A DNA stretch of 64,000 nt from Hyphomicrobiales bacterium (lineage in GTDB: Bacteria; Pseudomonadota; Alphaproteobacteria; Rhizobiales; Devosiaceae): the NCBI GenBank assembly GCA_027487555.1, contig JAIYDI010000014.1:62001-126000 (forward strand), written 5' to 3'. Under the pieces are notes generated by a model, which did not search any database, was not told the origin of the DNA, and saw only the letters and a program-made list of their open reading frames with translations. Shown in pieces: positions 8,612-48,056 of the stretch. The first letter of the stretch is position 1. Each line of letters opens with the position of its first letter. A program made the translations under genes and the position numbers.

Positions 8612-9003
8612 GCCATCCGATCATTGCCCTGCAGAAAGGGCTGGTAGCGGCGCTTCAGGTCACGCCGGAACTGGCGGGTGTTGCTGTGGTCGACGCGCCG
8701 ACAAAGGGCGCAGCGCCGCCCTGGATCGCCATTGCCCGGCACGATCTGCTGCCGCGCGATGGCGACCTGACGCCGGGCTTCGAGCACCGGCTGGTGCTGC
8801 AGTGCTGGGCGGCGGACCCAAGCCGCAAGGCGGTGCTCGGGCTGGTGAGTGCGGCGCTTGGATGTGTGGAGGCGCTGACCCTGTCGGATGGCCTGCGCAT
8901 CACGCATGTGGCGCATGAACGGACCGACACCGCGATCGATACGGACACCGGCCGGGCGCGCGCCGCGCTGGCGGTGCGGATTTATAGTGAGTGGGTGGGG
9001 TAG
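8608..9003 (+). CDS. GTA tail terminator, DUF3168 (g8)
   Basis: 131 residues. DUF3168 family, matching MSHPIIALQKGLVAALQVTPEL at the start and the later region around HRLVLQCWAADPSRKAVLGL. In GTAs and siphophages this protein caps the tail tube at the head end. It ends the head-connector gene block; a REP-like hairpin region follows before the tail tube gene. Confidence 0.88.
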   Translation: MSHPIIALQKGLVAALQVTPELAGVAVVDAPTKGAAPPWIAIARHDLLPRDGDLTPGFEHRLVLQCWAADPSRKAVLGLVSAALGCVEALTLSDGLRITHVAHERTDTAIDTDTGRARAALAVRIYSEWVG

Positions 9004-9020
9004 GGCCGGTGCCCGCCGCC

Positions 9021-9126
9021 CTCGTGGTTCGTCGTTCGACAGGCTCACGATGAGGAGGCTCACCATGAGGTCGGTTGGGGCCGGTGCATCGCTCGGACCT
9101 CATCCTAAGCCTGTCGAAGGACGAGG
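9021..9126. repeat. REP-like inverted repeat inside the GTA operon
   Basis: Arms at 9031-9055 and 9098-9122 are complementary at 22 of 25 positions and contain the core TTCGACAGGCT. A partial third copy (GGCTCACCATGAGG) lies at 9057-9070. The same core recurs at 61662-61734 downstream of dusA, so this is a dispersed extragenic repeat. It sits between g8 and g9 in the GTA operon and would fold into a strong RNA hairpin. Confidence 0.85.
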
Positions 9127-9158
9127 TCAGATCACAAGACATTTCAAGGAGAAACACC

Positions 9159-9572
9159 ATGGCGGCACAGAGTGGCCGGGACATGCTGCTGAAGCTCGAT
9201 GAAACGGGCGCGGGCAGCTTCGTGACTGTCGCCGGGCTGCGCACCAAGCGGCTGGCGTTCAACGCGCAGAGCGTCGACGTGACCGATGCCGAGAGCGCCG
9301 GACGCTGGCGCGAACTGCTCTCGGGCGGCGGGGTCAGGCGGGCCAGCGTGTCGGGCAGCGGCATTTTCAAGGACCAGGCCTCGGACGCGGCGATTCGCTC
9401 GATCTTTTTTTCGGGCGAGGTGCGCAACTGGCAGCTTGTGCTGCCGGATTTTGGCACGGTGGCGGGGCCGTTCCAGATCACGGCGCTCGAGTTTTCTGCC
9501 GACCACGCGGGCGAGGTGCGTTTCGAGCTTGGGCTCGAAAGCGCCGGCGCCCTCAGCTTTACGGGGGCCTGA
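9159..9572 (+). CDS. GTA major tail (tube) protein (g9)
   Basis: 137 residues from the ATG at 9159, with AAGGAG 9-14 nt upstream. An upstream in-frame start would only translate the REP repeat. The family pattern is SGRDMLLKLDETGAGSFVTVAG, NAQSVDVTDAESAGRWRELL and a C-terminal FELGLESAGALSF. It stacks in hexamers to make the tail tube. Follows the REP-like element and precedes the tail chaperones. Confidence 0.92.
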   Translation: MAAQSGRDMLLKLDETGAGSFVTVAGLRTKRLAFNAQSVDVTDAESAGRWRELLSGGGVRRASVSGSGIFKDQASDAAIRSIFFSGEVRNWQLVLPDFGTVAGPFQITALEFSADHAGEVRFELGLESAGALSFTGA

Positions 9573-38398: not shown

Positions 38399-41038
38399 TC
38401 AGCCGGCCAAAGTGCGCTCCAGAATGTCGGCCGTATTGCGGCTGAGGTTCACGGATTCCTGCAAGGATTTCATAGCCTTCTGGGCCTCCGCCCGCCGTTT
38501 GGGTTCGAAGCTCTGCCAGATGCGGAACGCTGTGAGCACCCGTGCCGCCACCTGCGGATTGCGGGCGTCGACATCGCCGACGAACTCGGCAACGAAGCGG
38601 AAACCCGCGCCATCGGCCCGTGCGAACTGCGTCGGGTTGTTCATCCCGAAGGTCGCCATCAGCGCGCGCAGGCGGTTGGGATTGTTGCGGGGGAAATCAG
38701 GCTCGTCGAGGATCGCCCCGATGCGCGCGATGATGCCCTCGACCGGGGCGGCGGCGACGGTGCCAAGCCACTTGTCGAGCACCAGCGGGTCGCCGGTGAA
38801 GCGGGTGCGGAAATCGGCGAGCACCGTCTCAGCGTCCGTAGTCCACGCCTGCACGATGGTGGTGAGGGCCGATAGGCGATCTGTCATGTTGGACGCGCTG
38901 TCATATTGCGCGCGCGCCAGTGCCGCCGCTCCGGCAGCACCGCCAGCCACCATCTGGCCGAGCGCCACGTTGCGCAGCAGCCGTCGCCCCGCCTGCTCGA
39001 AATCGGGTGAGTAGTCCGGGCCGACGGCATTGGCATGGTAGGTTTCGCGCAACAGTTCGCCATTGCGGGCTACGACGGCGGCAAGGAAGCGCTGGCGGAT
39101 CTCTCGGATACGATCAGGGTCGATGTCGCTGCCGAGCGCGCGGGCGATGACGCTTTCCTGCGGCAATTGCAGCGCATTGGCCTTGAAGGCGGCATCGAGG
39201 CCCGGCGAGCGAGCCGTCTCGGCCAAGGCAGCGGCCACGTTGTCCAGATTGCCTTCGGTCCAGGTCTCGCCGCGCACCGCCTTGACCAGGATGTCGAGGC
39301 TTGCATCCTGCAGCGCCTGCCAGCGGTTGAAGGGATCGGTGTCGTGCCGGGCGAGGAAGAGCTGGTCGGCGGCGCTGGCGTCCGAGCTGATCTTCACCGG
39401 CGCCGAGAAGCCGCGGAACAGCGACGGCACCGGGCGGTTGGCAATGCCGGTAAATGTGAGGTCGAGGCTGGGGCTGTCCATGACGATCAGGTCGCCCTCG
39501 ACTGTACCGCCGGCGACACCCGTCCAGGTCATGTCATGGCCATTGGGGCCGACGAGGCCGAACTTGATCGGCAGCACCATCGGCTGCTTCTCCGTCTGGC
39601 CCTGCGTCGGTTTCGTTTCCTGCGTCAGCGAAAGCGTATAGGTCTGCGTCGACGCATCATAGCTATCAGTGGCCGTCACCTCCGGCGTACCCGCCTGCAG
39701 GTACCAGTGCTGGAACTGGCTGAGGTCGCGGCCCGACGCGTCCTCGAAAACCTTTATGAAGGCCTCGATAGTGGTCGCGTCCCCGTCATGGCGCGCGAAA
39801 TAGAGATCCATGCCCTTGCGGAACGTCGCCTCGCCCAGCAGCGTCGCCAGCATGCGGCAGATCTCGGCGCCCTTTTCGTAGACAGTCGCCGTGTAGAAAT
39901 TGTTGATTTCCTTGTAGTGGTCCGGCCGCGGCGGATGCGCGAGCGGCGAGCCGTCCTCAGGGAACTGCACCTGTCGCAGTGCCCGCACATCCTCGATGCG
40001 GGCAACCGGACGGCTCCGCTCATCCATCGAAAATTCCTGGTCGCGATAGACCGTCAGCCCTTCCTTCAAGCAGAGCTGGAACCAGTCGCGGCAGGTGATG
40101 CGGTTGCCCGTCCAGTTGTGGAAATACTCGTGCGCGATGACGCTTTCGATGGCGGCATAGTCGCCGTCGGTGGCGGTTTCGGGCTTGGCGAACACCAGCC
40201 GGTCGTTGAAGATGTTGAGGCCCTTGTTCTCCATCGCGCCGAAGTTGAAATCCGACACGGCGACGATGTTGAACACATCGAGATCATACTCGCGGCCGAA
40301 GCGGCGCTCGTCCCACGCCATCGAGCGCTTCAGCGAGTCCATCGCATAGGCGCACTCGGCTTCCTTGCCATGCGTACAATAGATGCCGAGCGCCACCCGG
40401 CGCCCCGAGGCCGTGGTGAAGCTGTCATGGATCGAGCCGAGATCGCCTGCTACCATGGCGAACAGATAGCTCGGCTTCGGGAACGGATCGTCCCACACGG
40501 CAAAATGCTGGTTGTCGGCGAGCACACCGCTTTCGACAAGATTGCCGTTCGAGAGCAGCACGGGCGCCAGGGTTTTGTCGGCCTGCATGCGCACATGATA
40601 GGGCGCAAGGATATCCGGACGATCGAGGAACCAGGTGATGCGGCGGAAGCCCTCGGGCTCGCATTGCGTGCACCAAGTACCCGACGAGCGGTAGAGCCCC
40701 ATCAGCTTGGTATTGCCTTCGGGCTGCACCGTGACTTCGGTCTCGAGCACGAAGCGCCGGAGCGGCGGCTCGTGGATCGTGAGGCTCGTCGACGTCTCCT
40801 CATAGGCGGTGAGCGCCAGTGGCAGCCCGTCGATGGCGATCGAGGTAAGCTTCAACTCCTCGCCGTCGAGTTCGAGCGCCGTTCCAGGTTCGGTTCCTGC
40901 CCGCGGCACCAGCGTGAGCAGGGCACGGACGTGGCTCGTCTCCGGCGCGATGCGGATATCGAGCTCAACCTTCTCTACCTTATAGGGGGTTGGGGCATAA
41001 TCCTTGAGAAACACGGTCTCGTCGGTTTCGCCGCGCAT
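38399..41038 (-). CDS. pepN: Aminopeptidase N (M1 family)
   Basis: 879 residues from the ATG at 41038, which has GGAG 6 nt upstream; a start 42 nt further upstream is possible but unsupported. Gram-negative PepN form: substrate-recognition GAMEN at 267-271, zinc motif HEYFHNW with His303 and His307, the third zinc ligand Glu about 19 residues on, and the C-terminal alpha-helical domain. Cytosolic broad-specificity aminopeptidase. The 60 nt between it and the kinase are AT-rich with no clear terminator. Confidence 0.94.
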   Translation of the reverse strand: MRGETDETVFLKDYAPTPYKVEKVELDIRIAPETSHVRALLTLVPRAGTEPGTALELDGEELKLTSIAIDGLPLALTAYEETSTSLTIHEPPLRRFVLETEVTVQPEGNTKLMGLYRSSGTWCTQCEPEGFRRITWFLDRPDILAPYHVRMQADKTLAPVLLSNGNLVESGVLADNQHFAVWDDPFPKPSYLFAMVAGDLGSIHDSFTTASGRRVALGIYCTHGKEAECAYAMDSLKRSMAWDERRFGREYDLDVFNIVAVSDFNFGAMENKGLNIFNDRLVFAKPETATDGDYAAIESVIAHEYFHNWTGNRITCRDWFQLCLKEGLTVYRDQEFSMDERSRPVARIEDVRALRQVQFPEDGSPLAHPPRPDHYKEINNFYTATVYEKGAEICRMLATLLGEATFRKGMDLYFARHDGDATTIEAFIKVFEDASGRDLSQFQHWYLQAGTPEVTATDSYDASTQTYTLSLTQETKPTQGQTEKQPMVLPIKFGLVGPNGHDMTWTGVAGGTVEGDLIVMDSPSLDLTFTGIANRPVPSLFRGFSAPVKISSDASAADQLFLARHDTDPFNRWQALQDASLDILVKAVRGETWTEGNLDNVAAALAETARSPGLDAAFKANALQLPQESVIARALGSDIDPDRIREIRQRFLAAVVARNGELLRETYHANAVGPDYSPDFEQAGRRLLRNVALGQMVAGGAAGAAALARAQYDSASNMTDRLSALTTIVQAWTTDAETVLADFRTRFTGDPLVLDKWLGTVAAAPVEGIIARIGAILDEPDFPRNNPNRLRALMATFGMNNPTQFARADGAGFRFVAEFVGDVDARNPQVAARVLTAFRIWQSFEPKRRAEAQKAMKSLQESVNLSRNTADILERTLAG

Positions 41039-41269
41039 CCATAACTCCCGGACAATCAAGTGATTAGATAACTGTGGCACTCTAGCTACAGTCGAATCCC
41101 GGCGATAGTGTATCCTGTCTAGCTGACTTCGACAGCAGAAGCCGTGACGCAGCGTCGCGCCCGGCAGGTTCAGCTCAAGGGCAGCGCACGAGTTTGGCAG
41201 GTATTCAGCCTGTCATGTGCGGCATCCACATAAAGACCGGACTCCGGCCGAAACGGGTGAAGAACCCGC

Positions 41270-41300
41270 TTGACCTCAACCATGCTTGAGGTCGTAGCGG
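41270..41300 (+). promoter_or_regulatory. MerR-type promoter/operator
   Basis: A -35 TTGACC (41270-41275) and a -10-like TAGCGG (41295-41300) are separated by 19 bp, and the spacer region holds the palindrome ACCTCAA (41273-41279) / TTGAGGT (41286-41292). Over-long spacing with a dyad between the boxes is the hallmark of MerR-family activators (SoxR, YbbI-like). It drives the ABC exporter gene starting 37 nt downstream. No MerR-family gene is in the window. Confidence 0.8.
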
Positions 41301-41336
41301 TTTTGTCCCGATTGCGGCGGGAGTGGGAGCGAGACG

Positions 41337-43202
41337 ATGATTGATTCTGTATTCCGCTGGTTCGAGAACCGGCTCAATCCCTATCCCAAGTCCGACCCGG
41401 CGCAGCCGCCCAAGGGGCTGGTGGCGTTCTGCCTGCACTATTCGAAGGGTGCGAAGCGCTGGCTGATCGCCATGGCCGTGCTCGGCGCGGCGATCGCTGT
41501 GGGCGAAATCATGCTGTTTGGCTTCATGGGCTCGCTGGTTGACTGGCTGAGTACTGCCGACAAGGCGACGTTCCTTGAAACCGAGGGGTGGAAGCTTTGG
41601 GGCATGGCTGCCTTCCTGCTGCTCCTGCTCCCGGCCCTGCAACTCATTGATACCCACATCATCCACCAGACGCTGCTGGGCAATTTTCCGCAGCGCATCC
41701 GCTGGATGGCGCATCGCTACCTGCTCCGGCAGTCGATGAGCTATTTCCAGGACGAGTTTGCCGGCCGCATCGGCGCCAAGCTGATGCAGACGGCGCTCGC
41801 CGTGCGCGAAGTGGTGATGAAGCTGCTCGACGTGACGATCTTCGTCGTCGTCTATTTCGCCGGCGCGGTGGTGCTCGCTGCCATGAGCGACGTCTGGCTC
41901 GCCGTACCCTTCATCGTCTGGCTGGCGTTCTACGTCACGCTGCTGTGGTACTTCATCCCGCGCCTCGGCAAGGTCAGCGAAAAGCAGGCCGACAGCCGCT
42001 CGATGATGACCGGCCGCATTGTCGACAGCTACACCAACATCGCCACGGTGAAGCTCTTCTCGCACTCGCAGCGCGAGGAATCCTACGCCCATGAGGCAAT
42101 GGACGAGTTCATGGGCACGGTGCACCAGCAGATGCGCATGGTGACCATCCTGCAGGTGGCCATCACCACGTCCAACTGCATCCTCCTCGCCGCGGTGTGC
42201 TGGATCGGCATCTCGCAATGGCTCAATGGCGTGATGAGCCCCGGCGCCGTCGCCGTCGCCGCTTCGCTGGTGCTGCGCTTCCAGGGCATGAGCCAATGGG
42301 TCATGTGGGAAATGTCGGCGCTGTTCGAAAACATCGGCATCGTGCGCGACGGCATCAATTCGATTTCGTTGCCGCGCGTCGTCTCCGATGCGCCGGATGC
42401 GAAGCCGCTCGGGCCGGTGAAGGGCGACGTGCGCTTCGACAATGTCGGCTTCCACTATGGCAAGGCGTCGGGCGTCATCGAGGGGCTCGACCTCGCCATC
42501 CGGCCCGGCGAGAAGATCGGCCTCGTCGGGCGCTCGGGCGCCGGCAAGTCGACCATCGTCAACCTGCTGCTGCGCTTCTATGATCGCGAAAGCGGGCGCA
42601 TCAGCATCGACGGCAAGGACATCGCCCATGTGCAGCAGGATTCGCTGCGCGAGCAGATCGGGGTCGTGACGCAGGATACCTCGCTGCTGCACCGTTCGGT
42701 GCGCGAGAACATCCTCTACGGCCGCCCGGATGCGTCCGAGGAGGAGATGCGCGAGGCGGCCCGGCTCGCCGAAGCCGACAAGTTCATCGAGACGCTGGTC
42801 GACATGAAGGGCCGCACCGGCTTCGACGCCCATGTCGGCGAGCGGGGCGTCAAGCTCTCCGGCGGGCAGCGGCAGCGGATTGCCATCGCGCGGGTGCTGC
42901 TCAAGAACGCGCCGATCCTCGTGCTCGATGAGGCGACCTCCGCGCTCGACAGCGAAGTCGAGGCGGCGATCCAGAGCCAGTTGCACCTCCTCATGCGCAA
43001 CAAGACAGTGATTGCCATCGCGCACCGGCTCTCGACCATCGCGGCGATGGACCGGCTCGTGGTGCTCGACCAGGGCAAGAGCGTCGAGCAGGGCACGCAT
43101 GCCGAACTGCTCGCGCTCAACGGCCATTATGCCAGGCTGTGGAACCGTCAGTCCGGCGGTTTCCTCGAGCCGGACGTGCAGGAGGAGGTTGCAGCGGAAT
43201 GA
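41337..43202 (+). CDS. ABC exporter half-transporter 1 (fused TM and ATPase)
   Basis: 621 residues. An N-terminal six-helix membrane domain (about 45-320) and an ABC ATPase with Walker A (GRSGAGKST, about 398), signature LSGGQRQR (about 508), Walker B ILVLDEATSALD and the H-loop AHRLSTI. MsbA/multidrug exporter type. It is the only gene directly behind the MerR-type promoter. It is 621 residues like its paralogue at 43877, and the two may form a heterodimer. GGGAGTGGGAGCGAG precedes the ATG. Confidence 0.92.
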   Translation: MIDSVFRWFENRLNPYPKSDPAQPPKGLVAFCLHYSKGAKRWLIAMAVLGAAIAVGEIMLFGFMGSLVDWLSTADKATFLETEGWKLWGMAAFLLLLLPALQLIDTHIIHQTLLGNFPQRIRWMAHRYLLRQSMSYFQDEFAGRIGAKLMQTALAVREVVMKLLDVTIFVVVYFAGAVVLAAMSDVWLAVPFIVWLAFYVTLLWYFIPRLGKVSEKQADSRSMMTGRIVDSYTNIATVKLFSHSQREESYAHEAMDEFMGTVHQQMRMVTILQVAITTSNCILLAAVCWIGISQWLNGVMSPGAVAVAASLVLRFQGMSQWVMWEMSALFENIGIVRDGINSISLPRVVSDAPDAKPLGPVKGDVRFDNVGFHYGKASGVIEGLDLAIRPGEKIGLVGRSGAGKSTIVNLLLRFYDRESGRISIDGKDIAHVQQDSLREQIGVVTQDTSLLHRSVRENILYGRPDASEEEMREAARLAEADKFIETLVDMKGRTGFDAHVGERGVKLSGGQRQRIAIARVLLKNAPILVLDEATSALDSEVEAAIQSQLHLLMRNKTVIAIAHRLSTIAAMDRLVVLDQGKSVEQGTHAELLALNGHYARLWNRQSGGFLEPDVQEEVAAE

Positions 43203-43213
43203 GCAAGCTCGAT

Positions 43214-43588
43214 CTAGGGGCGCTGGGCCTTGGCGCGCTCGGCAAGATACCAGCGCTCGAGCCACTCGGAGAGCATGTCGAGGGGGATATGGTCTGCATC
43301 GCCCCCGGCGTGTGCGGTCCCTTGGGCGAGGTCGATGGTCAGGGACAACCCGGCGACATCGCCGGGAAAGCGCCTGAGGGCAACCCGCAGGCGGTCGTCG
43401 GCAAGCCAGGTGGCGCTGTCGACATGCCAGTTCCACTCGCCGATCTCGACACGTAGCGCTTGGTCGCGGGCGCGGATCACCGTTCCCGCGACCACCCATT
43501 GCGAGTTCATCGCCTCATGGGCCGTGAGCACGAGCACATGGGTGCCATTGGGCGAGGGCTGGCGGCGGGTATCGTCGGTTGTGCTCAT
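43214..43588 (-). CDS. Hypothetical protein between the two exporter genes
   Basis: 124 residues from the ATG at 43588. Polar soluble protein with the segments HVLVLTAHEAMNSQWVVAGTVIRARDQALRVEIGEWNWHVDSATWLADDRLRVALRRFPGDVAGLSLTIDL and IPLDMLSEWLERWYL. No family recognised; it is antisense to the exporter direction and fills most of the gap between them. Could be a cytosolic partner or unrelated. Codon use looks normal. Confidence 0.6.
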   Translation of the reverse strand: MSTTDDTRRQPSPNGTHVLVLTAHEAMNSQWVVAGTVIRARDQALRVEIGEWNWHVDSATWLADDRLRVALRRFPGDVAGLSLTIDLAQGTAHAGGDADHIPLDMLSEWLERWYLAERAKAQRP

Positions 43589-43693
43589 AGCAGGGTCCCG
43601 ATCTTGGCGCAGGCAAGTCTTCAATTCTCAGATTAACGTTGCAGCGCTGCAATAGTCTTGATGCACGAACTGAGCCATAGAGGAGGCCTGCCC

Positions 43694-43715
43694 AGCCGGG
43701 TACTCCGGCCCGGCT
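43694..43715 (+). promoter_or_regulatory. Leader hairpin upstream of ABC exporter 2
   Basis: Perfect 7-bp stem AGCCGGG (43694-43700) / CCCGGCT (43709-43715), loop TACTCCGG, then a pyrimidine tract. It precedes a 29-codon ORF in the exporter's leader and may take part in attenuation. Confidence 0.45.
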
Positions 43716-43749
43716 TCCCCTTCCCACTTCCGAGTCCCAGGAGGACCCG

Positions 43750-43839
43750 ATGGATAGCTTCAACCTTCGCCTTATTGCCCCTGCTGCCCGCGCTTTGATC
43801 AAAAGCAAACCGAAACAATATCTTAGAGCCCTGACCTGA
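43750..43839 (+). CDS. Leader ORF of 29 codons before ABC exporter 2
   Basis: ATG at 43750 with a strong AGGAGG 5 nt upstream; the product MDSFNLRLIAPAARALIKSK... is 29 residues, basic and amphipathic. The stop (43837-43839) lies inside an inverted repeat and 37 nt before the exporter ATG. Good ribosome site and position suggest a translated leader peptide or small membrane-active protein, but no homologue is known to me. Confidence 0.5.
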   Translation: MDSFNLRLIAPAARALIKSKPKQYLRALT

Positions 43840-43860
43840 TTCTGGTATTCAGCTCAGGCT
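43829..43860 (+). promoter_or_regulatory. Inverted repeat before ABC exporter 2
   Basis: CCTGACCTGA (43830-43839) and TCAGCTCAGG (43850-43859) match as inverted arms at 9 of 10 positions around TTCTGGTAT. The stop of the leader ORF sits in the left arm. It could be a transcription-factor operator or a pairing element in the leader RNA. Confidence 0.4.
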
Positions 43861-43876
43861 CGGAAATGAGTGGATC

Positions 43877-45742
43877 ATGCTCAACCGAGTCGTTTCCTGG
43901 TTCGACGCCCGCTACAGCCCTGTAGCGCTTGCGAAGGACACCACGCCCCCAACGGGCGTCGACAAGTTCATCTTTTACTTCCTCAAGCAGTTTCGCGGGG
44001 CCATCTGGCTGCGGATGATTCTGGTTGCCATCGGTTCTGTCGCCGATGCGATGATGCCGATCTTCGTCGGCATGCTGGTGGGCATGCTGTCCATGACGCC
44101 GCCCGGGCAGATGTTCGCACAGCACTGGCAGACCCTGCTCTGGATGGTCGTGGTGCTGGCGGGTATCCGGCCGGTTACCTTCGTGCTTGACCAATTGGTG
44201 CGCAACCACGCCATCGTTCCCTCCATCGTCAACCTCGTGCGCTGGCAAAGCCATTGGCACGTGGTGCGGCAGAGCTGGACCTTCTTCCAGAACGATTTCG
44301 CCGGCCGGATCGCCAACAAGGTGATGCAGGCGGGCGAGGCGATCGAGACGGCAGTCAACCTGTCGATCGACGCAGCCTGGTATGCATTGATCTTCGTGGT
44401 GGTGGCGATCTTTGCGCTTGCCGGCATGAACCACTGGATTCTGCTGCTGCCGGTGGCCGTATGGCTGGTGCTCTATGCCATCCTGTTCGTCATCTGCATG
44501 CCGCTTATCGCCAAATATTCGGAGTCCCTGTCGGACGCCCGCTCGGTGATGACCGGCCGCATCGTCGATGCCTACACCAATATCCACACGCTCAAGACCT
44601 TCTCGTCCTCCGGGCACGAGGACAAGTATGTGGCGGACTCGGTGCTGGAACACACGGTGGAGTTCCAAAAGCTGATGCGCGTCTTCACCTATATGTGGAG
44701 CGTGCTGTTCGTGCTCAACGCCGGGCTGGTGATCTCGATCACCTGGCTGGCGCTCGCTGGCTGGAACGACGGCACGCTCTCTGCGGCTGCCGTTGCGACG
44801 GCAATCCCCTTCGCGCTGCAGATCATGAACATGAGCGGCTGGATCCTCGATATCGGCTCCAACATCTTCCGCCAGATCGGCACGGTGAAGGATTCGATGG
44901 ATACCATCGCCCAGCCGATCAAGATGATCGACCCGCCGACCGCGCCCGCCCTCCGGGTTGCCGAGGGCCTGATCGAGTTCGACAACGTCACTTTCAACTA
45001 CTGGCGCGGCGAGGAGGGCAAGGTGATGGAAAACTTCCACCTCACCATCCGCCCCGGCGAGAAGGTTGGGCTGGTCGGCCGGTCGGGCTCGGGCAAGTCG
45101 ACGCTGGTCAACCTGATGCTGCGGCTCTTCGATGTCGAGGGCGGGTCGATCCGCATCGACGGACAGGACGTGCGGACGGTGACGCAGGAGAGCCTGCGCT
45201 CGGCCATCGGGCTTGTCAGCCAGGATACGTCGCTGCTGCATCGCTCCGTGCGCGAGAACATCAAGTACGGCCGACAGATGGCCACCGATGACCAGATGGT
45301 CCGTGCCGCCGAGCAGGCCAAGGTCGCCGAGGTGATCGCCGGGCTCGTCGATCCGCATGGACGGCGCGGCTTCGACGCCCATGTCGGCGAGCGTGGCGTG
45401 AAGCTCTCGGGCGGGCAGCGGCAGCGTGTCGCCATCGCCCGGGTGCTGCTGAAGGATGCGCCGATCCTCGTGCTTGACGAGGCGACGTCCGCGCTCGACA
45501 GCGAGGTCGAGGCGGCGATCCAGGAGCAACTCACCTCCCTGATGGAAGGCAAGACGGTGATTGCGATCGCGCACCGGCTCTCGACCATCGCGGCGATGGA
45601 CCGGCTTGTGGTGCTCGAGAAGGGCCAGATCGTCGAGGAAGGCACTCATGCCGAACTGCTGGCGCGGGGCGGCCACTACGCCAAGCTCTGGGAGCATCAG
45701 TCCGGCGGCTTCCTCGATGCCGAGGCCAAGGCGGCGGAGTGA
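43877..45742 (+). CDS. ABC exporter half-transporter 2 (fused TM and ATPase)
   Basis: 621 residues with the same architecture as the first transporter: membrane domain 35-320, Walker A GRSGSGKST near 401, LSGGQRQR, DEATSALD, AHRLSTI. Its product differs mainly in the membrane half. The two genes are separated by 670 nt that include a reverse-strand gene and a leader region, so they are not a simple operon. It has its own terminator. Substrate unknown; multidrug or lipid export is likely. Confidence 0.92.
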   Translation: MLNRVVSWFDARYSPVALAKDTTPPTGVDKFIFYFLKQFRGAIWLRMILVAIGSVADAMMPIFVGMLVGMLSMTPPGQMFAQHWQTLLWMVVVLAGIRPVTFVLDQLVRNHAIVPSIVNLVRWQSHWHVVRQSWTFFQNDFAGRIANKVMQAGEAIETAVNLSIDAAWYALIFVVVAIFALAGMNHWILLLPVAVWLVLYAILFVICMPLIAKYSESLSDARSVMTGRIVDAYTNIHTLKTFSSSGHEDKYVADSVLEHTVEFQKLMRVFTYMWSVLFVLNAGLVISITWLALAGWNDGTLSAAAVATAIPFALQIMNMSGWILDIGSNIFRQIGTVKDSMDTIAQPIKMIDPPTAPALRVAEGLIEFDNVTFNYWRGEEGKVMENFHLTIRPGEKVGLVGRSGSGKSTLVNLMLRLFDVEGGSIRIDGQDVRTVTQESLRSAIGLVSQDTSLLHRSVRENIKYGRQMATDDQMVRAAEQAKVAEVIAGLVDPHGRRGFDAHVGERGVKLSGGQRQRVAIARVLLKDAPILVLDEATSALDSEVEAAIQEQLTSLMEGKTVIAIAHRLSTIAAMDRLVVLEKGQIVEEGTHAELLARGGHYAKLWEHQSGGFLDAEAKAAE

Positions 45743-45764
45743 TCCGGCGCCCATGGCGAAAGTC

Positions 45765-45794
45765 AGGGCAGGGCCGCAGCGTCCTGCCCTTTTC
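45765..45794 (+). terminator. Rho-independent terminator after ABC exporter 2
   Basis: Perfect 8-bp stem AGGGCAGG (45765-45772) / CCTGCCCT (45783-45790), a 10-nt loop, and a following TTTCTCC tract. It lies 22 nt after the exporter stop. Confidence 0.8.
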
Positions 45795-45919
45795 TCCTGC
45801 CGGAACGGTTGCCATATCCCGGTCTGGGTATCGGTACCTGCGGCATCGGCGAGAGATCTGATTTCTGCGCCGTGCCGCCCCCCAATTCAGCGCTTTCGGG
45901 GAAGGTCGCATGACGTTCC

Positions 45920-45980
45920 CGGTTCGAAAGCGCGACAAAACAAGGGCTTAGATCATTTCAGCGTTTCAACCAAAACGTGA
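45920..45980. repeat. Dispersed repeat element, copy 2
   Basis: Reverse-complement match to 36649-36712, with the blocks CGGTTCGAAAGCGCGAC, ACAAGGG, TTAGATC and GCGTTTCAACCAAAA. It lies in the 291-nt gap between the exporter and the MFS gene and is not coding there. The rest of the gap (45795-45919 and 45981-46032) shows nothing else recognisable. Confidence 0.85.
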
Positions 45981-46032
45981 ACTGAACTAGGGCCAAGCTG
46001 CCTGTGCGCAAAGCGAAGAAGGGACTGCCTGG

Positions 46033-47496
46033 ATGACGCCCTTTCACCACGTTCTGGGCAACAATCTCGTTGCCAATGTCACCAACTTCACGGTTTGGTT
46101 CGCCATTACCTTCTGGGTCTATCTGGAGACCCGGTCGGTGTTCGCCACCGGCATGATCGCCGGCATCTACCTGGTGCTCACGGCTGGACTCGGCATCTGG
46201 TTCGGCTCGCTCGTCGACCACCACGCCAAACGCCAGGTGATGCTCGGCTCGAGTGCGGTCTCCTTCGTCTTCTATACGCTGTCGTTGGGCCTGCTGGTGG
46301 CCTTCCCCGAGGCTGTGTTCCAGAACGAATATGGCTGGCAACTCTGGGCGTTCGTGCTGCTGGTGATGCTGGGTGTGATCGCCGGCAATATCCGCTCCAT
46401 CGCCCTGCCGACACTCGTCACCATCCTTGTTCCCGCCGACCGGCGCGACAGAGCCAATGGCCTTGTCGGCATGGTCACCGGCATCGGTTTTCTGACGACA
46501 TCGGTCATCTCGGGGCTGCTTGTCGCCTGGGGCGGCATGGTGGCGACACTCCTGCTCGCGCTGGCATTGACGGCGCTGGCGTTCATCCACCTCTGGTATG
46601 TCCGCCTCGAGGAGGGCCGCGTGGCACCGCATCCGGACGCGCCGGCAGAAAAGCGCAGTGTCGACCTCGCCGGCACCATCCGGGTCATCGGCGCGGTGCC
46701 GGGCCTGTTCGCCCTCATCTTCTTTGCCGCGCTCAATAATTTCCTCGGCGGCATCTTCATGGCCTTGCTCGATGCCTATGGTCTTTCGCTGGTATCGGTG
46801 GAGGTCTGGGGCCTGCTGTTCGGCGTGCTTTCCAGCGCGTTCATCATCTCTGGGCTCATGATCTCGCGCACCGGTCTCGGCAAGAAGCCGCTGCGCACCT
46901 TGCTTCTGGTCAACCTGGTCGTTTGGGCGGCCTGCAGCGTGTTCACCATCCAGTCCTCGATCTGGCTGCTGGCCGCGGGAATCTTTCTGTGGATGCTGCT
47001 GGGGCCCTATGCCGAGGCCGCCGAGCAGACGACCTTGCAGCGGGTGGTGCCGCTCGACCGGCAGGGGCGGGTGTTCGGGTTCGCGCAGTCGGTCGAACAA
47101 TCGGCCTCGCCGCTCACGGCCTTCCTCATTGCCCCGGTTGCCGAGTTTGTCTTCATCCCGCTGATGACCGATGGTTGGGGCGCCGCCACGATTGGCTCGT
47201 GGTTCGGCACCGGACAGGAGCGCGGCATAGCACTTGTGTTCACCATTGCCGGGCTTGTCGGCGTGGCGATCACCTTGCTGGCGCTCACGTCGAAATACTA
47301 CCGCCAGCTTTCCGAGGCCTATGCAAACGCGCCGGATCCGGTCGCAGCAGCAGCGGCACCAGCGCCGCCGGCAAGCGCTAGAGCGCGCGCTGCACCGCCG
47401 AGCGCGGCGCGGGCTGTATCGAAAGCCCAGCTCTCGGCCCTTCATGCCGGGGGCGGCGGCCTCACGCCTTGCAGTAGAGCCCGTACAGCGTGGTGA
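46033..47496 (+). CDS. MFS exporter
   Basis: 487 residues with twelve predicted membrane helices, an N-terminal VTNFTVWFAITFWVYLETRSVFATGMIAG segment and the loop DHHAKRQVMLGSS between helices 2 and 3, of the MFS drug/siderophore exporter type. The C-terminal 50 residues are an alanine-, proline- and arginine-rich tail without structure. Its 3' end overlaps the convergent bigR gene by 35 nt. Substrate unknown. Confidence 0.9.
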   Translation: MTPFHHVLGNNLVANVTNFTVWFAITFWVYLETRSVFATGMIAGIYLVLTAGLGIWFGSLVDHHAKRQVMLGSSAVSFVFYTLSLGLLVAFPEAVFQNEYGWQLWAFVLLVMLGVIAGNIRSIALPTLVTILVPADRRDRANGLVGMVTGIGFLTTSVISGLLVAWGGMVATLLLALALTALAFIHLWYVRLEEGRVAPHPDAPAEKRSVDLAGTIRVIGAVPGLFALIFFAALNNFLGGIFMALLDAYGLSLVSVEVWGLLFGVLSSAFIISGLMISRTGLGKKPLRTLLLVNLVVWAACSVFTIQSSIWLLAAGIFLWMLLGPYAEAAEQTTLQRVVPLDRQGRVFGFAQSVEQSASPLTAFLIAPVAEFVFIPLMTDGWGAATIGSWFGTGQERGIALVFTIAGLVGVAITLLALTSKYYRQLSEAYANAPDPVAAAAAPAPPASARARAAPPSAARAVSKAQLSALHAGGGGLTPCSRARTAW

Positions 47497-47767
47497 GCAC
47501 CGCCTCCACCTCTGGGCTCGCAAGCCGGTAGTGGATCGATTGCCCGGCGCGACGCGTCTTCACGAGGCCGAGCGCTCGAAGCTTCGACAGGTGCTGCGAC
47601 AGCGGGCTCTGGTTGAGCCCGACCCGCTCGCCAAGTTCGGTGACTGTCAGCTCCTCCTCGAGCAGGTGGCATAGCACCATCAGCCGGCTGGGATTCGCCA
47701 TGGCGGCGAGCAGACCGGCGGCCGTCTCGGATTTTTTGGCGAGTTGAGCGGGTTGCATCTTGATCAT
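47462..47767 (-). CDS. bigR: BigR-type ArsR-family redox/persulfide repressor
   Basis: 101 residues. ArsR-family winged helix (ANPSRLMVLCHLLEEELTVTELGERVGLNQSPLSQHLSKLRALGLVKTRRAGQSIHYRL). Two cysteines, Cys33 in the helix-3 region and Cys99 near the C-terminus, match the thiol pair that senses persulfides in BigR/SqrR. It is divergent from a DUF2892 gene and a DUF442 gene, the normal BigR regulon. The frame is also open from an internal ATG at 47758. Confidence 0.88.
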   Translation of the reverse strand: MIKMQPAQLAKKSETAAGLLAAMANPSRLMVLCHLLEEELTVTELGERVGLNQSPLSQHLSKLRALGLVKTRRAGQSIHYRLASPEVEAVLTTLYGLYCKA

Positions 47768-47797
47768 ATTAGAACATCCGAATATATAAATATACGG
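47768..47797. promoter_or_regulatory. AT-rich BigR operator/divergent promoter
   Basis: The 70-nt gap between bigR and the DUF2892 gene has an AT-rich core (ATTAGAACATCCGAATATAT at 47768-47787, then AAATATACGG), with a near-palindromic ATATATAAATATA. BigR boxes in related species have the same AT-rich inverted form. It probably covers both promoters. Confidence 0.6.
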
Positions 47798-47837
47798 GTT
47801 TGCTTTGCAAGCCTAGCAGCGAAAGAGGAAGCTCGCC

Positions 47838-48056
47838 ATGTTCACCACCAATGTCGGCACGCCGGACCGCATCATCCGTATCGTCATCGGGCTCGTGCTC
47901 GTGGCGCTGCCGTTCGCACTCGGGGCCGCGCTGCCCGGATGGCTCGCCATCGGCCTGCCGATCGTCGGCCTCGTGCTGTTTCTGACCGCTTTCATCGCCT
48001 TCTGCCCGATCTATCGGGTGCTCGGCGTTTCCACCGCGTCGCGAAAGGACGTCTGA
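47838..48056 (+). CDS. DUF2892 small membrane protein
   Basis: 72 residues with two membrane helices. The NVGTPDRIIRIVIGLVLVALPF and FCPIYRVLGVST segments are the DUF2892/YgaP-type signature that often follows a rhodanese or accompanies BigR. Cys in FCPIY is conserved. Part of the sulfide/persulfide-response locus. One nt before the next gene. Confidence 0.9.
   Translation: MFTTNVGTPDRIIRIVIGLVLVALPFALGAALPGWLAIGLPIVGLVLFLTAFIAFCPIYRVLGVSTASRKDV

Follow-up and report, generated by a model that had tools for sequence, protein, structure and literature searches.

The segment 41270-41300 of the window, i.e., of the whole 64,000-nt stretch of DNA analyzed here, very probably represents a SoxR-dependent promoter of the downstream ABC exporter gene (ABC1). 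On the plus strand, it comprises a -35 hexamer TTGACC (41270..41275, 5/6 match to TTGACA) and a weak -10 hexamer TAGCGG (41295..41300, 2/6 match to TATAAT), separated by a spacer of exactly 19 bp (41276..41294), which is over-long as in MerR-family promoters. The likely SoxR box is the perfect 7+7 dyad ACCTCAA-CCATGC-TTGAGGT (41273..41292), a copy of which lies beside soxR and which is kept upstream of exporter orthologues. Two characteristics of SoxR promoters, a 19-20 bp spacer and the motif CCTCAA-N6-TTGAGG between the hexamers, are found at this site. The sequence-only reading had already described a MerR-type promoter with this dyad and spacer, and the present analysis confirms that the site exists. 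Its attribute "textbook" has to be qualified with regard to the -10 hexamer, and the distance to the exporter gene, given there as 37 nt, amounts to 36 nt between position 41300 and the ABC1 ATG at 41337.

With its arms allowed to be 0-20 nt apart, the ACCTCAA/TTGAGGT dyad occurs only once in the window and in 0/100 dinucleotide-preserving shuffles. Likewise, the 27-nt pattern TTGACCTCAA-N6-TTGAGGT-N2-TA, searched with up to three mismatches, gives a single match in the window and none in 100 shuffles, while in the whole 4.53-Mb genome four matches are obtained versus none for the reversed control. The perfect dyad with 6-nt loop is present at only two places in the genome, namely at 41273-41292 and on contig C4 (C4:428725-428744). 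A consensus scan of 40980-41400 did not reveal any sigma-70 promoter with normal spacing, and no Rfam family was detected at gathering score in the region 40000-48000 near the exporter. By themselves, the arms are not fully specific to SoxR, since a second MerR subfamily of the Devosiaceae adjoins a very similar dyad. Genes of this subfamily (L107, L113, L118, L121, L124, L125, L126, L130, and L134) are found next to ACCTCAAG-N-CTTGA(A/G) sites, mostly in the form ACCTCAAG...CTTGAAGT.

ABC1 (41337..43202, plus strand), the putative SoxR target, encodes a fused TMD-NBD ABC exporter of 621 aa (PF00664 and PF00005). Its best NCBIfam models are MsbA-like, albeit with scores under their cut-offs, its relatives include ABCB-type and Sav1866-like proteins, and the best named relatives are Devosia proteins with up to 85% identity, for which reason the host is regarded as a Devosia-type alphaproteobacterium. 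The divergent neighbor is pepN, encoding aminopeptidase N (38399..41080, minus strand; TIGR02414 at 1133 bits), whose ORF is taken from a GTG, although a later ATG may be the real start; it is not thought to belong to the regulon. In the intergenic region between pepN and ABC1, a further block at 41080-41135, perhaps the pepN promoter, is well conserved among 17 loci chosen for having the box. Downstream follows a second ABC exporter gene, ABC2 (43877..45742, plus strand), whose product is 47% identical to ABC1. It does not possess a box of its own, and its membership of the regulon is doubtful. Here, about 670 bp lie between the two exporter genes; several relatives, among them G002, G005, G006, G007, G009, and G012, have a spacing of roughly 170-250 nt. 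ABC2 is followed by genes encoding an MFS protein and, at 47462-47767, a regulator of the ArsR type, which is the sole DNA-binding regulator among the six window frames scanned against Pfam.

In the 4.53-Mb genome, nine matches to MerR_1 (PF13411) were obtained, none of which is found on contig C16 carrying the window. Hence, the earlier statement that no MerR gene is nearby holds, and that of a regulator encoded elsewhere is supported. Among the nine genes is soxR at C4:428755-429189, counted from the likely ATG (L029:8756). Its product reaches 212.6 bits with the equivalog model TIGR01950 (cut-off 116.9), and the best PDB match is SoxR from E. coli (2zhg, E 1.6e-49), with the alignment covering residues 19-156, i.e., 138 residues. 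The cysteine motif C-X2-C-X-C-X5-C for binding the [2Fe-2S] cluster is present, with CIGCGCLSMQHC aligned to CIGCGCLSRSDC of the E. coli protein. The sequence-only reading had suggested looking for a MerR-family gene with the same dyad in its own promoter; the only other perfect dyad of the genome indeed adjoins soxR, sitting between this gene and a divergent MFS pump gene (PF07690; DHA2-like models match below their cut-offs) with its likely ATG at L029:8664 on the strand opposite to soxR. There, a TTTACC-19 bp-TACGTA arrangement is directed at the pump gene, 53 nt before its ATG. When genome positions were compared, no dyad with up to two mismatches adjoined one of the remaining eight MerR-family genes. 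The stretches of about 300 nt preceding their HTH matches did not yield one either, in a scan covering solely dyads that span 20 nt with a -35-like start.

The third genome match (C27:20716-20742, one mismatch) precedes a glyoxalase-like (VOC) frame (L030, about 8744-9220), which by eye resembles the glyoxalase-fold protein (PF00903) of locus L132, intact and located behind a perfect box. The start of the C27 gene is not clean in this assembly, as the ATG closest downstream of the box is out of frame and soon stopped. The fourth match (C3:49919-49945, two mismatches) coincides in part with the 3' portion of an ORF (L031, 4558-5940) and is regarded as doubtful. Perfect SoxR boxes are also found before genes for a small protein with a hydrophobic appearance and a length of about 134-141 aa (L034, L036, L039, L042, L052, L035, and L044), which in L035 and L044 are divergent from soxR. 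The protein of L052, the one scanned, does not have a Pfam match, and this group is a candidate for an unnamed SoxR target. Other boxes precede genes for small SnoaL-like/DUF4440 proteins (L038, L040, L054, and L136), assigned by scanning in L038 and L136 and by resemblance in L040 and L054.

For the 12 best ABC1 orthologues of the genus, including the one studied here and comprising loci not picked for having a box (an earlier footprint used 17 loci picked for it), identity to the window amounts to 92% in the arms, compared to 53% for the loop and 50% for the rest of the 300 nt; no other 27-nt stretch in this region is conserved as well as the box. A dyad with 0-1 mismatch was established in 18 of 80 named loci, always 59-68 nt upstream of the start inferred for the exporter, while in the other 62 the best dyad has at least three mismatches. 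Two of these (L155 and L180) show a 3-mismatch dyad at the same place as the box of the 18 loci, and the remaining 60 have at least four. These counts omit the G-loci centered on the paralogue ABC2 or with partial ABC1 (such as L077 and L080-L090). Of the 19 genomes of the genus, 16 contain a site of at most two mismatches; considering sites anywhere, one is present in 15/15 genomes with soxR versus 1/4 without (G011, 82% complete). Among the loci fetched around these sites, ABC1 orthologues are preceded by a site in ten other genomes of the genus (G001, G002, G004, G005, G010, G011, G012, G014, G015, and G018), to which G008 was added from coordinates. In the same set, another eight sites are directed at MFS genes, and for six of these soxR flanks the opposite side within the stretch fetched. 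G017, on the other hand, encodes an ABC1 with 83% identity but possesses neither soxR nor the box.

Co-occurrence of box and SoxR was analyzed in a family set of 136 genomes, probably overlapping with the 80 named loci, so that the two sets are not independent. SoxR scores over the cut-off in 39 genomes and ABC1 is found at 1e-200 in 122. The 14 genomes without an exporter match at this threshold were omitted; four of them have SoxR (G010, G013, G025, and G027). In G010, ABC1 is split and exporter pieces are found behind a perfect box; the contig that carries it also contains, at a distance of about 2 kb, frame-split pieces of a second SoxR-like gene (G010:C43:5204-5615). A box was counted when the 27-nt pattern was present with up to two mismatches, matching exporter and box coordinates by hand, hence weaker boxes (such as in L168 and L175) are recorded as absent, provided that the family set includes those species. 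Among the 122 ABC1 genomes, SoxR is encoded in 24/29 with a box and in 11/93 without, with 82 having neither (Fisher p 1.6e-12, a value that ignores common descent). At a completeness of at least 90%, the corresponding numbers are 23/27, 10/84 and 74. The largest genus group (g5, 71 ABC1 genomes) shows both features in 13, the box alone in 4, SoxR alone in 1 and neither in 53 genomes (p 5e-10, likewise ignoring kinship), whereas the association is not significant in the own genus with 17 ABC1 genomes (both 10, box alone 1, SoxR alone 3, neither 3; p 0.10). The 11/93 exporter genes that stand without a box in genomes with SoxR are counter-evidence to a SoxR promoter. Furthermore, in 5/29 genomes, G011 (82% complete) as well as G028, G047, G098, and G102 (99% each), the box precedes ABC1 without a SoxR over the cut-off, which means that the box either persists after soxR is lost or serves another protein. 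By hand count, the 27-nt pattern is perfect in 14/24 boxes of genomes with SoxR versus 0/5 without (one-sided p 0.025), which in this small sample is compatible with decay after SoxR loss.

Physical linkage between a SoxR relative and ABC1 was observed in 4/80 named loci, considering the fetched upstream flank; for the other 76, the flank did not contain a SoxR match at the threshold applied. A head-to-head cluster of a SoxR-like gene, a box, an FMN reductase gene (PF03358) and ABC1 exists in two gammaproteobacterial relatives, Xanthomonas sp. XNM01 (L194) and Luteimonas abyssi (L206). Their SoxR-like proteins show 58 and 64% identity and their boxes one and two mismatches, respectively; reductase gene and ABC1 share the strand, and the ABC1 match begins 81 and 78 nt, respectively, past the reductase stop. 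In Rhizobiales AFS086343 (L215), a perfect box is directed at an FMN reductase gene, but a minus-strand gene lies between box and ABC1, while in Pararhizobium arenae (L217) a perfect box is located beside soxR.

As described for other bacteria, SoxR binds DNA whether reduced or oxidized, but activation is restricted to the oxidized form, which alters the over-long spacer (PMC4411124, PMC4146615). A close counterpart to the arrangement found here is soxR-mfsA of Stenotrophomonas maltophilia, as reported in PMC4411124: the mfsA promoter (ACCTCAACTGCAGTTGAGGT) equally shows TTGACC, a 19-bp spacer and ACCTCAA-N6-TTGAGGT, soxR is located head to head with the MFS pump gene as on contig C4, and mfsA is activated by SoxR and induced by paraquat, plumbagin and menadione. 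Unlike the S. maltophilia system as described there, a second, distant box is present here before an ABC exporter gene. Similarity also exists to the E. coli soxR-soxS site, where, as cited in PMC4411124, CCTCAAGTTAACTTGAGG forms the box located between the hexamers. However, enterobacterial SoxR controls the single gene soxS (PMC4411124), whereas the boxes here are directly at pump genes. The SoxR regulon of Streptomyces coelicolor is described as small, with six genes bearing SoxR boxes, among them the ABC transporter gene SCO7008/EcaA and genes for redox enzymes, but it belongs to an actinobacterium and the inducer is the endogenous antibiotic actinorhodin (PMC4146615). Copper-responsive CueR/HmrR promoters share the 19-bp spacer and the palindrome between the hexamers, yet their arms, given as ACCTTCC / GGAAGGT in PMC1526738, differ from ACCTCAA / TTGAGGT. 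An ABC1-type exporter as SoxR target was not encountered in the open-licence papers searched, an absence of little weight given this restriction, and neither was a redox-sensing SoxR in Devosia; the "SoxR" in the abstract of one Devosia study is an ArsR-type repressor. The system is of the known S. maltophilia soxR/mfsA kind, of which the ABC exporter as putative SoxR target in a Devosia-type bacterium would be a new example.

That the box is used by a different MerR-family protein, either a metal sensor of the CueR/CadR kind or a member of the second Devosiaceae subfamily with its ACCTCAAG...CTTGAAGT sites, is improbable, although nine MerR-family genes are present in the genome and three of the six others scanned score above the CueR cut-off. 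The regulator is most likely SoxR and not a metal sensor, since the only other perfect dyad lies between soxR and the MFS pump gene, while no dyad with up to two mismatches was seen beside the remaining eight genes or, in the scan for 20-nt dyads with a -35-like start, within some 300 nt before their HTH matches. Moreover, the CueR operator ACCTTCCC-(5)-TGGAAGGT and the other published operators of CueR/HmrR, MerR and ZntR compiled in PMC1526738 have different arms, and metal-sensing MerR proteins were rejected as main reading. The second subfamily has the related dyad in its favor, but among the matches listed the identity between its members and the nine MerR proteins encoded here does not exceed about 36%. 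The persistence of the box in the four soxR-less genomes with 99% completeness would agree with another regulator.

The same persistence could also indicate that the box is a relic. This possibility, or binding of SoxR without activation due to the weak -10 hexamer (repression or no effect), is unlikely as well: a relic would be difficult to reconcile with arms kept at 92% versus 50% for the surroundings and with the spacing of 59-68 nt between box and gene that all 18/18 named loci with 0-1 mismatch show. The poor match of TAGCGG to TATAAT is paralleled by the mapped mfsA promoter of S. maltophilia, where a -10 hexamer CATGCT is likewise poor and activation nevertheless occurs (PMC4411124). 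A chance palindrome is practically negligible considering the 0/100 shuffles, the four genome matches versus none in the reversed control and the conservation, and nothing was found in its favor.

With SoxR as the likely regulator, the inducer class narrows to redox-cycling compounds. Of the redox drugs, metals and organic toxicants initially considered as inducers, redox-cycling compounds are retained by this assignment, while metals are disfavored by the differing operator arms and by the lack of a dyad beside the other MerR-family genes within the range scanned. Binding and activation by SoxR at 41270-41300 as well as the inducers are inferred from analogy to the systems described. Accordingly phrased as a model, the SoxR protein encoded on contig C4, bearing the cysteine motif of a [2Fe-2S] cluster, would sit on the box inside the 19-bp spacer, and in the reduced state the hexamers would be out of register and the promoter quiet. 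Redox-cycling compounds such as quinones, viologens and phenazines would oxidize the cluster, and oxidized SoxR would then distort the spacer such that RNA polymerase can use the promoter and ABC1 is made, which presumably exports the redox compound or its products. The same SoxR would act at the C4 box between soxR and the MFS pump gene, and perhaps also at the third box before the glyoxalase-fold frame, resulting in a small regulon with boxes directly at pump genes.

With this, an exporter lacking any other assignment receives a likely regulator from DNA alone, and as redox-cycling compounds are the predicted inducers, the cargo becomes testable. The fused ABC exporter of Devosia-type bacteria would join the candidate direct SoxR targets, in line with the notion that beyond the enterics SoxR governs the handling of redox-active small molecules. 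For specialists on SoxR, this would hardly come as a great surprise. Beyond the single promoter, it is conceivable, though we would stop slightly short of calling it probable, that SoxR of the Devosiaceae runs a compact efflux and detoxification regulon against redox-active natural products, comprising ABC1, the MFS pump, and the glyoxalase-fold, SnoaL-like and small hydrophobic proteins. ABC1 would then be an old partner of soxR, still arranged head to head with it together with the FMN reductase gene in some gammaproteobacteria, that would have become unlinked while keeping its box, mostly losing it where soxR was lost.
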